Origin: Patescibacteria group bacterium
GTDB taxonomy: Bacteria > Patescibacteriota > Kazan-3B-28 > UBA10110
Direction of reading: 5' to 3'
Assembly: GCA_018817805.1 (NCBI GenBank)
Contig: JAHITC010000041.1
Span: forward strand, 1-34,388
Length of the DNA: 34,388 nt
The notes beneath the pieces are model-generated. The model saw only the letters and a program-made list of their open reading frames with translations, ran no database searches and was not told the DNA's origin. The translations under genes were made by a program, and so were the position numbers. This document shows, in pieces, positions 6,235-25,627 of the stretch (position 1 is the stretch's first letter; every line of letters begins with the position of its first letter).

Positions 6235-6873
6235 ATGGAAGATCAAGACGAAGCTAATCTACAAGTTGAGAAAGAGGAAATAATTGTCGAGAAAGAATGG
6301 GTGCGCATCGAGCGTCTTTTAGCTAAGAAAAACAACGCAGCATGTAGTATGGCGATTGTTGAAGTAGACAAACTTTTTCGCGAAGTTTTGGGTATAGTGA
6401 GTTTTGGTGAAACAGTTCATGAGGCAATAGCTAATGCATCGGGGATGTTTTCAGATATGAAGGGTTTGATGGAAGGGCGAAAAGTATATGAAGACATCGT
6501 AGAAGTGCCAGGTTTCTTGGTGGATAAAAATGTAGCTAAACATATAACGGCTATTTATTTGCAAGCTATTCTAGATATGTTAGGTAAAGACTATGAAGAC
6601 AAGGGCTATGGTAAAAAATTTGTAAACGAGCTGGTCTATTTTAGTGAACTGCATCCAAAGTTATTGCGTAATCTATTGGTGAGTGTTCTGGTGTTTCTGG
6701 TTGGTGTATGGTTTTTAGCTGACACTGCGCCTGGGCAATGGATGGTGGGGCTTGCTGTTGGGTTTACCAGATTTGTACTGCAATGGGTGTGGGGTTTGGT
6801 TCTAATTGTTTTAGTGGTGCTAGGTATCGCAATTATTAGTTGGTTATTCTTCGAAAAACGAAAAAATCGGTAG
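6235..6873 (+). CDS. Hypothetical protein with C-terminal transmembrane helices
   Basis: ORF 3 bp after leuS; two hydrophobic segments (LLVSVLVFLVGVWFLA, VWGLVLIVLVVLGIAIISWLF). Confidence 0.6.
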   Translation: MEDQDEANLQVEKEEIIVEKEWVRIERLLAKKNNAACSMAIVEVDKLFREVLGIVSFGETVHEAIANASGMFSDMKGLMEGRKVYEDIVEVPGFLVDKNVAKHITAIYLQAILDMLGKDYEDKGYGKKFVNELVYFSELHPKLLRNLLVSVLVFLVGVWFLADTAPGQWMVGLAVGFTRFVLQWVWGLVLIVLVVLGIAIISWLFFEKRKNR

Positions 6874-6921
6874 AGCGAAAGTTTGTTACAATAAAGTGTG
6901 CTTATTCTAAATCATTAAGGG

Positions 6922-9900
6922 ATGAAGTTTGTTCATCTACATGTTCACAGCCATTACAGTTTGTTAGACGGGTTAAGTAAAATCCCAGATCTAGTGGCAA
7001 AAGCTAAGGAGCAAGGCGCCGAAGCTTTAGCATTAACTGATCATGGAGTAATGTATGGCATCATCGAGTTCTACGAAACCTGTAAAAAGGTCGGCATTAA
7101 GCCGATCTTGGGAACCGAAGTTTATATTGTTGAAGGTAAGTTAGAGCAAAAAGAGAATATTCCAGGGAAGCATAGATATTTTCATTTAACTTTGTTAGCA
7201 AAAAATTATGCTGGATATCTTAACTTGATGAAAATTACCACCAAAGCGCATATTGATGGATATTACTACAAACCCAGAATTGATCACGAGTTTTTGGAGC
7301 AGCATAGTGAGGGAATTATTGCCTTGTCTGGTTGTCTGAAAGGAGAGCTACCTACAGCTATTGTGGAGGGTAATTTGACTAAAGCCAAAGAAGTTATTCA
7401 GTGGCACCAGAAAGTTTTTAAAGATGATTATTATATAGAAGTTCAGTATCATCCAAATATACCAGACCAAATTAAAGCCAATATAGGTTTGAAGGCAATA
7501 GCGAAAGAGTTTAGTGTGCCACTAATAGCATCGACCGATTCCCATTATATTAGGCCAGAAGATGCTGAGGCTCACGAAGTGTTGCTTTGTGTGCAAACTG
7601 GGGCAAAGCTTGCAGATGAAAAACGTTTTAGCATGAAAGGAGAGATCTTTGATCTAACTGACCCGTCTGTTATTGCAGAAGCTTTTGCGGATACCCCAGA
7701 GGTTATTGCTAATACTCAAAAAGTTGCAGACAAATGTAACGTTGAACTAGAGCTCGATAAAATTATTTTACCTAGCTTTGATCTGCCGGATGGTGAGACG
7801 GGGCATAAAGATTATTTAAGGAAGCTAGTTGATAGCGGCGTTAAAGAGTATTTTGGTGATCAACCATCTAAAGAAGTGTTAGAGAGGATCGAGTACGAGC
7901 TGGGTGTTATTCACCAAATGCAATATGAAACATATTTTTTGGTGGTGGCTGATTTAGTTGGGTGGGCTAAGGCTCACGGAGTTTTGGTAGGTCCTGGTCG
8001 AGGTAGCGGGGCGGCTAGTTTAGTGTCATATGTGTTAAAGATCACGGATATTAATCCGTTGGACTACGATTTAATTTTTGAGAGATTTTTAAATCCATCG
8101 CGTATCTCGATGCCAGATTTTGATATAGATTTTGCAGACGATCGTAGGGGAGAAGTTATTAATTATGTAGTTGAAAAATATGGCAAGGATAGAGTCTCAC
8201 AAATTGTAACATTTGGGACTATGGCAGCCAGAGCATCGTTGCGTGATACGGCCAGAACGATGGGAATGTCATATACAGAAGTCGACAGAATTGCTAAATT
8301 AATTCCATTTGGCTTATCTCTAAGCGAAGCTATTAGCGCCGTAGATGAGTTGAAAGATCTTTATGCGCAAAACGAACAGGTACGTTCTCTCATTGATTTA
8401 GCAAAAAGATTGGAAGGGGTGGTGCGGCACACATCAGTACATGCCGCAGGAGTTGTAATAGCGGATAAACCATTAGTTAATTACACGCCTCTACAAGTTG
8501 CGAGCAAAGGAGATATCTCGTATGTTACTCAGTATTCGATGTTTCCAATAGAAAAGTTGGGACTACTAAAGATAGATTTTTTGGGGCTTAAAAATCTAAC
8601 TATTATTAAAAATACGTTACGCATAATTAGAAAAACGAAAGAAAAAGAAATCGATATTTCCAAGATTCCTTTAACTGACCCTAAAGTGTTTGAACTATTT
8701 GCTAGAGGTGAGACTACAGGAGTATTTCAGTTTGAGAGTGAGGGGATGAAGCGAAATTTACAGGAATTACGACCAACTGTTTTTACCGACATTATTGCCA
8801 TGGTTGCTCTTTATCGTCCTGGGCCAATGGCGCTAATCCCAGATTTCATTGAGCGTAAGCATGGAACTAAAAGAACCGAGTATTTACATCCCAGGCTCGA
8901 ACCTATTTTAAAAGAAACATACGGCATTGCTGTATATCAGGAGCAAGTGCTTAGAATTGCCCGAGATTTGTGTGGTTTTTCTTTAGGGGAGGCAGATATT
9001 TTGCGCAAAGCTATTGGTAAGAAAATTGCCACTCTTTTAATGGAGCAGAAGAAAAAATTCATTGAAGGAGGGGTGGCCAATGGAATAAGCAAGGGGATCG
9101 CCGAGGAACTGTTTGAGTTTGTCGAGCCATTTGCAGAGTATGGATTTAACAAAGCTCATGCTACTTCGTATGCATTAATTGCGTATCAAACCGCATATTT
9201 AAAACGTCATTTCCCTAGTGAGTTTTTAGCGGCGCTTATGACCTCGGACCAAAATGATTTGGATAAAGTGGCTAAAGATATTGCCGAATCAGAGCGATTC
9301 GGTAGCAAGGTTTTGCCACCATCAGTTAATGAGAGTTTTACTGATTTTGCAGTAGTAAAAGAAACTGGCAATATTCGGTTCGGGCTTAATGTGATTAAAA
9401 ATGTAGGTCGCAAAGTATCTGATTTAATTGTTGAAGAAAGAGGTGAGCGCGGGCCATACAAAGACATTGCTGATTTTCTAAAAAGAGTGCCCAAGGAAGC
9501 ATTAAACAAGAAAGTACTAGAGTCTCTCTCTAAGGCGGGGGCTTTAGAAGAATTTGGTGATCGTAAGGAATTTTTAGAAAACGTAGACACGATGCTGGAG
9601 TTTGTGGGTACGCGAGATAAGCAAGGGGATATTAATCAAATTGGTATTTTTGGGGAAGGAGTAATAGCAGCTTCAATTTTTCAGCTTAAACCAGCTACTT
9701 GTTCAACTGAGAAGGAGCGCTTAAGTTGGGAGAAAGAATTACTTGGTACTTTTGTGTCAAAACATCCGCTTAAGGAAATTCTGCCAAGATTAAAAAAGAC
9801 CAATGTTAATACTACTGATATATCGTCTTTGCATGAGGATTCTGATGGGAAAGTCATTAAGTTAGGCGGCATGGTTTCAGTAGTTCAGAAAGTAAATACT

Positions 9901-24584: not shown

Positions 24585-24812
24585 ATGTTACAAACAGATG
24601 AGAAGACACAACTCAAAGCAGGAAAGTTTCGACATTTTAAGGGCGTGTCTTATAAGGTTATCGGAACGGCCAGACACAGCGAGAATTTGGAGGAACTAGT
24701 CATTTATTGTTCATTATCTGACGGGGAAATGTGGGCAAGACCAAAAACTATGTTTTACGATAAAGTAAGCGTTGATGGCAAAGAGATCCCCCGATTTGAA
24801 TTCATTGAGTAA
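24585..24812 (+). CDS. DUF1653 family protein
   Basis: KAGKFRHFKGVSYKVIGTARHSENLEELVIYCSLSDGEMWARPKTMFYDKVSVDGKEIPRFEFIE matches the family pattern (YRHFKG...ARHSETLEELVVY...WVRP..MF.E.V..DG..VPRF). Confidence 0.85.
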   Translation: MLQTDEKTQLKAGKFRHFKGVSYKVIGTARHSENLEELVIYCSLSDGEMWARPKTMFYDKVSVDGKEIPRFEFIE

Positions 24813-24822
24813 ACATTAAAGC

Positions 24823-25560
24823 ATGGATTATTCATTATTGAAATATCCCGAGAAGAGTCACAGAAAAATTGTTCACTTTCCTGAGGATTCAAAAGAATCA
24901 GCAGAGTTATTAGGTATCGTGTTTGGTGATGGGGGAATAAATAACGATTGGCAACTTGTAATTACTCTCAATTCAGATGCTGATATAAAATACTCTAGAT
25001 ATGTTGATGAACTTTTAAGAAAACTATTTAAGATCGATGTATATATTAGGAAAAGACCTAACATGAATGCTCTAGTGCTTGTTTGCTCTGGAAGTAATCT
25101 GGTAGACTTCTTAGTCGATAAAGGTGCAGTTAGAGGTAATAAAGTTATTCAGCAAATCGATATTCCCGACTGGATCAATAGTAACCAAGAGTATCAAAAG
25201 TCATTCGTGCGAGGACTAGTCGACACTGATGGCTGTCTGTTTATCCATAAACATGTTGTAAATGGCATATTTCATGCTAATATTGGTTTTTGTTTTACAA
25301 ATAGTTCCAAGAAACTCATTCTTTCTGTGGCTAGAATTTTGAAAGAATTTGGGATTGAACCACATATTACTGATGAGGGCAGAAGAATATATTTATATAG
25401 TGTCAAGAGTGTGACGTCTTATCTAGACATTTTTGGTTCATCTAACCCCCGGATTTCTGAAAAGTATCTAGAATGGCTTACTATAAGAGGGAACCAAAGC
25501 GACAAAACTGATCGTTTATATTTAGAAAGTAAGGCATGGAGAGATGCAAGAGTGGTTTAA
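24823..25560 (+). CDS. LAGLIDADG homing endonuclease-like protein (two-motif, free-standing)
   Basis: Two LAGLIDADG-type helices: AELLGIVFGDGGI and FVRGLVDTDGCLFI; 3' end overlaps tRNA-Ser. Confidence 0.8.
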   Translation: MDYSLLKYPEKSHRKIVHFPEDSKESAELLGIVFGDGGINNDWQLVITLNSDADIKYSRYVDELLRKLFKIDVYIRKRPNMNALVLVCSGSNLVDFLVDKGAVRGNKVIQQIDIPDWINSNQEYQKSFVRGLVDTDGCLFIHKHVVNGIFHANIGFCFTNSSKKLILSVARILKEFGIEPHITDEGRRIYLYSVKSVTSYLDIFGSSNPRISEKYLEWLTIRGNQSDKTDRLYLESKAWRDARVV

Positions 25561-25627
25561 TTGGCGGACCTGGAAAGTCCGTGTGCTCGAAAGGGCACCA
25601 AGGGTTCGAATCCCTTTCTCTCCGCCA
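25538..25627 (+). tRNA. tRNA-Ser (anticodon GGA), CCA encoded
   Basis: GGAGAGA/TCTCTCC acceptor, CGGAC-CTGGAAA-GTCCG anticodon arm, long variable arm TGTGCTCGAAAGGGCACC, T-arm AAGGG-TTCGAAT-CCCTT, GCCA. Confidence 0.97.

Follow-up and report, generated by a model that had tools for sequence, protein, structure and literature searches.

Free-standing homing endonucleases beside tRNA genes are known from the phages T4 and T6, in which the GIY-YIG nuclease SegB cuts within tRNA genes and, through recombination, drives the inheritance of its own tRNA region, reportedly with no preference for particular tRNA isotypes (PMC2988022, PMC13096335). Mobile ORF elements have been described from fungal mitochondria, at atp6 in Allomyces and at atp6, atp9, cox2 and nad3 in Glomus (PMC3630166). 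In the CPR, LAGLIDADG enzymes are encoded by insertions inside rRNA genes, some of these insertions being group I or II introns, and the LAGLIDADG_3 class among them is described as having a variable N-terminal region; tRNA is not mentioned in the main text of that study (PMC11270868). We found no description of tRNA-anchored LAGLIDADG genes in bacteria in the open-licence literature.

The window analysed here is a stretch of 34,388 nucleotides from a Patescibacteria group bacterium (contig JAHITC010000041.1). A sequence-only reading had proposed that a two-motif LAGLIDADG ORF takes in the first 23 nt of an intact tRNA-Ser(GGA) gene, and ORF analysis, ARAGORN and Rfam (RF00005, 53.1 bits) bear this out: the homing endonuclease gene (HEG) occupies 24823..25560 on the forward strand and encodes 245 aa, the tRNA gene occupies 25538..25627 on the same strand, and the two share 25538..25560. 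As claimed, the 5′ end of the tRNA gene encodes the HEG tail WRDARVV, whose tryptophan codon TGG straddles the tRNA boundary, and the D-arm gives the stop codon TAA (25558-25560). The nearest relative, from genome G397, has an identical 23-nt overlap and stop, also with tRNA-Ser(GGA), and backs the start of the window HEG (MDASLLKYPKKSHRK in G397 vs. MDYSLLKYPEKSHRK in the window). The chance that a random ORF would end within -40 to +20 of the 5′ end of a same-strand tRNA is ~0.002 per ORF. The tRNA gene lies at its native locus, between rpsF-ssb-rpsR-efp and dnaG-rpoD, as it does in the HEG-free genomes G001 and G002. A repeat search, an Rfam scan and a tRNA-Ser model detected no tRNA remnant upstream of the HEG, and the window itself thus shows no displaced tRNA copy. 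A DUF1653 gene (24585-24812) lies 10 nt upstream of the HEG; the two are not a conserved unit, and DUF1653 was ruled out as part of the element, since it is found at no other HEG locus.

The window protein has two LAGLIDADG motifs, LLGIVFGDG (24907..24933, forward strand; catalytic D36) and VRGLVDTDG (25207..25233, forward strand; catalytic D136), and both catalytic aspartates are conserved without exception in the alignment (16 of 16 relatives). The protein matches Pfam LAGLIDADG_3 (E=2e-12), the sole Pfam family above its own cut-off, and so has no GIY-YIG nuclease domain by this measure; LAGLIDADG_WhiA scores 17.6 bits, below its cut-off of 23.2. The AF2 model (mean pLDDT 87.5) has I-Tsp061I as its best PDB match (2dch, E=2.6e-12), and WhiA stands at rank 8 among its fold matches. 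The fold might have belonged to a WhiA-like or other non-endonuclease protein, a possibility that the earlier reading had itself raised; it is closest to I-Tsp061I, and the protein is not WhiA because both catalytic aspartates are invariant. Two motifs with their catalytic acids, together with the fold, point to a LAGLIDADG homing endonuclease that would cleave DNA. Its final 16 residues (25510..25557, forward strand), encoded in part by the tRNA gene, are predicted to be disordered, with pLDDT mostly < 50, so that the overlap would have no evident structural role for the protein. Many relatives possess an additional N-terminal region of ~100 aa, helix-turn-helix-like by eye and with no Pfam match above cut-off, which neither the window protein nor the members of its GGA sister clade possess.

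Association with tRNA genes extends across the family. When 97 related genomes were searched with the single sequence, the four best relatives (34-44% identity) came from four different families, and each lay directly 5′ of a tRNA-Ser gene, with anticodons GCT, GCT, GGA and TGA. When the search was widened with a profile to 380 genomes of the phylum, it yielded 27 loci in 24 genomes, and a second draw from the phylum, centred on G379, recovered the same HEG genomes. Every one of the 18 strongest relatives, the window included, touches a tRNA-Ser or tRNA-Tyr gene, and none occupies an unrelated site without a tRNA; 17 end at the tRNA 5′ end, 14 of them at tRNA-Ser (GGA, GCT, TGA, CGA) and three at tRNA-Tyr, and one is convergent at the 3′ end of tRNA-Ser(GGA). 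Stop codons of the tRNA-Ser-linked HEGs range from 39 nt inside the tRNA to 20 nt before it, and of the 18 Ser or Tyr loci at which the HEG precedes the tRNA, counting G397, 14 have the stop inside the tRNA. In three of the 18 strongest relatives (L016, L024, L027) the HEG match contains an in-frame stop, and these copies may be in decay. In an independent named collection, a patescibacterial locus (L010) has an inverted tRNA-Ser(TGA) and a tRNA-Ser(GCT) on either side of a decayed HEG; this copy (L010:304-640), directly before the tRNA-Ser(GCT), has lost its N-terminal part and is apparently frameshifted. Judged by this relative and by gene content, the window too would come from the Patescibacteria (CPR).

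Among the weaker profile matches, two lie just 5′ of tRNA-Gln, five just 3′ of tRNA-Leu(CAA) and two have no tRNA, one of these being cut by a contig end. A related LAGLIDADG subfamily (L030, L032, L034, L036, L037) sits directly 3′ of tRNA-Leu(CAA), which likewise has a long variable arm, and the HEG start codon in L034 follows within a few bases of the CCA of that tRNA; another subfamily (L028, L033) ends 1-8 nt before tRNA-Gln(CTG). None of 15 distant viral homologues adjoins a tRNA.

The HEG tree groups its members according to the linked tRNA. Mapping tRNA labels onto it requires 8 changes, when the least possible is 7 and the mean for shuffled labels is 19. GCT-linked (support 98/96) and CGA-linked (100/100) HEGs form clades; GGA-linked HEGs make up two starred clades whose union is weakly supported, Tyr-linked HEGs form one group with weak support, and TGA-linked HEGs are scattered. 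Individual HEG clades span different host families, and the clades track the isoacceptor (GGA, GCT, CGA, Tyr) and not the host family. The HEG and tRNA trees match imperfectly: the closest tRNA to that of the window is found in G004, yet the G004 HEG falls in another GGA clade. A family-wide and isoacceptor-specific association supports the proposal that the window HEG is a tRNA-anchored selfish element, which is the part of the sequence-only interpretation that stands, its intron relic being unsupported and its DUF1653-HEG unit not conserved.

Among the genes found, no tRNA-Ser anticodon is represented more than once in a genome, some genomes being incomplete, and hence a HEG-linked tRNA is the sole gene for its anticodon; the exception is G079, with an extra and unusual tRNA-Ser(ACT). 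The window gene is the only tRNA-Ser(GGA) found in its genome. Across families, whole-tRNA identity for GGA is 77.5% between linked genes vs. 74.1% between linked and unlinked genes, and because this signal is weak the tRNAs were compared arm by arm. The D-arms of linked GGA genes are 65% identical to native D-arms of the same family, against 89% among native genes (P ~0.001, permutation within families). Other arms are not notably different, the linked-native and native-native values being 82 and 84% for the anticodon arm and 73 and 72% for the variable arm. A native-type D-arm (TCNNNTAG), seen in unlinked tRNA-Ser(GGA) genes of 14 of 15 families, occurs in 0/6 linked vs. 30/33 unlinked GGA genes (Fisher p=2.6e-5, which is not a clean probability as the rows are related), and all six GGA-linked genes differ in the D-arm from HEG-free relatives of their own family. 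In the window, the D-arm region (tRNA nt 8-27; 25545..25564, forward strand) reads TGCAAGAGTGGTTTAATTGG and departs from the native TCGCATAGTGGCCTAGTGCG type; we regard it as a putative HEG target or resistance segment. The idea that the D-arm changed just to keep the HEG frame open was rejected, since the TAG of the native type (nt 13-15) does not fall in the reading frame that the window uses.

The strength of the D-arm signal depends on the isoacceptor: GGA shows it clearly and CGA and Tyr show it fairly, but it is weak or reversed for TGA and GCT, for which the D-arms of HEG-free genes are heterogeneous anyway. Two CGA-linked tRNAs from different families have 100% identical D-arms, against 71% identity in the acceptor and 50% in the variable arm. 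As a later independent test, linked tRNA-Tyr genes of three genera were found to share the acceptor (100%) and the D-arm (93%), whereas the values against five HEG-free congeners are 66% and 64%; no such difference exists in the anticodon arm. Since the D-arms of these five congeners differ among themselves (67%), Tyr backs a shared linked type and not a single native type.

We consider it probable, at roughly two in three, that the window HEG is a free-standing, isoacceptor-specific endonuclease gene abutting the 5′ end of a tRNA gene present in one copy, and that it spreads by intronless homing, with the D-arm as its probable target. In favour of this are the tRNA association throughout the family, the isoacceptor-specific clades, the intact catalytic residues and the D-arm change of the GGA class, together with the ruined native tRNA of G004, the HEG-type tRNAs of the HEG-free G209 (both described below) and the decayed HEG of L010. 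On this account, for which we infer DNA cleavage, its site, recombinational homing and resistance from comparative sequence patterns, the enzyme of each clade would recognise the gene of a single tRNA isoacceptor, which in the window is tRNA-Ser(GGA); its likeliest site is the conserved D-arm (~nt 8-27), a partly palindromic stretch of 20 bp. When the break is repaired from an allele that bears the HEG, the HEG would be placed just upstream and the 5′ part of the tRNA co-converted, leaving the carrier with one working tRNA whose D-arm would no longer be cut. Insertion before the mature tRNA would spare tRNA function, and the HEG would need no stop codon of its own. With that stop inside the tRNA, processing by RNase P would strip the HEG mRNA of its stop codon, a possible brake on HEG expression; the sequence-only reading had also suggested that HEG mRNA decay might be coupled to RNase P processing. 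A bolder extension, which we hold quite tentatively, is a cleave-and-rescue element: the enzyme would destroy the sole gene for an essential isoacceptor and carry a resistant replacement, loss of the element's tRNA would be lethal, and recurrent invasion would drive the turnover of tRNA-Ser and tRNA-Tyr across the phylum.

How much of the tRNA moves bears on a competing account, possible though on balance doubtful, in which the HEG travels with a complete foreign tRNA, the native tRNA is displaced and then decays, and the D-arm difference reflects foreign origin. It would fit traces in G004, where the new tRNA and HEG adjoin an inverted remnant of the native tRNA-Ser(GGA) that lacks the D-arm and the 5′ anticodon strand, and in G079, where an inverted tRNA-Ser(ACT) (L013:2576-2666), possibly the old GCT gene with a changed base 34, lies upstream of the HEG and its tRNA-Ser(GCT). 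Both acceptor strands and a T-loop base are common to the linked tRNA-Tyr genes, which also fits movement of a complete tRNA, as does genus g152, where the HEG and tRNA-Ser(CGA) of G379 are inverted relative to HEG-free congeners. However, the tRNA-Ser(GGA) of G287 is flipped with no HEG, so that inversion is weak evidence of insertion, and the anticodon and variable arms of the linked tRNAs in G397 and G303 resemble those of HEG-free relatives, with mainly the D-arm (in G303 also the acceptor) differing. Within the homing account, G397 and G303 thus favour the 5′ part alone as the moving unit, and G004, G079 and Tyr favour the whole tRNA. In g152, the HEG-free G209 has nearly the same tRNA-Ser(CGA) as G379 (94.5%), in the same place and orientation, and also a HEG-type tRNA-Tyr, with no HEG remains beside either. 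A gene that by eye resembles PaaX/Cas2 (L148, ~6440-7200) directly precedes this tRNA-Ser(CGA) of G209, at the place of the HEG in G379. The tRNA-Ser(TGA) genes of G000, G005, G169 and G209 show 69-82% identity between congeners and have no adjacent HEG; perhaps this fast turnover stems from past HEG invasions.

Such turnover in HEG-free genomes could equally be expected if the HEG merely inserts at a harmless position upstream of conserved tRNAs and the tRNA differences are older or accidental, but neither a D-arm-specific change in six families nor isoacceptor-faithful clades would be expected, and we think this explanation unlikely. Constant position at tRNA 5′ ends, the helix-turn-helix-like N-terminus of many relatives and the place of WhiA among the fold matches would suit a domesticated DNA-binding regulator of tRNA transcription that uses the LAGLIDADG fold as WhiA does; this is most improbable given that both metal-binding aspartates are invariant, that the family is sparse (24 of 380 genomes) with decayed copies, and that the window protein has no such N-terminal region. 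The sequence-only reading had further suggested that the HEG is left over from an intron or intervening element, which on this view would once have split the tRNA, and in the CPR many rRNA insertions and introns do encode LAGLIDADG enzymes (PMC11270868). We give this next to no credence: no intron family reaches the Rfam threshold at the window, its tRNA-Ser(GGA) and all other linked tRNAs are uninterrupted, and the HEG always lies outside the mature tRNA.

Intronless homing predicts a cut in the native D-arm and none in the linked D-arm. If the reading is true, these are mobile nucleases that distinguish between the isoacceptor tRNA genes for a given amino acid and, at each move, remodel an essential tRNA present in one copy, which would be a concrete candidate for what makes tRNA-Ser genes turn over so fast in these reduced genomes. 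They would also be naturally related to cleave-and-rescue drives, and would supply meganucleases whose targets are defined and similar to one another.

Each of the known systems shares part of this arrangement. WhiA has a LAGLIDADG-type fold, but it is a transcription factor that has lost the catalytic acids, both of which are kept in the window protein. I-Tsp061I, I-DmoI and the TliVMA intein have the same fold and two catalytic motifs, yet they are encoded by introns or inteins, whereas the window HEG has neither. Enzymes of the CPR rRNA insertions come from the same bacterial radiation and have LAGLIDADG folds, but they sit within rRNA genes and the window HEG is free-standing at an intact tRNA. 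SegB resembles the window family in being a free-standing homing endonuclease next to tRNA genes; it differs in being a GIY-YIG enzyme of phage genomes with tRNA arrays, in contrast to LAGLIDADG enzymes at single-copy tRNA genes of bacterial chromosomes, and isoacceptor-specific clades, an ORF ending inside the tRNA and the D-arm change set the window family apart from it. Furthermore, free-standing enzymes of T4 cut at sites hundreds or thousands of bp away from the genes that encode them, whereas the putative target in the window lies within ~30 nt of the insertion point. The fungal mitochondrial elements are alike in that an endonuclease element carries a foreign end of its target gene, replaces the native part and leaves a silent remnant in place; there the targets are the 3′ ends of protein genes in mitochondria, and here the target would be the 5′ part of a tRNA gene in bacteria.
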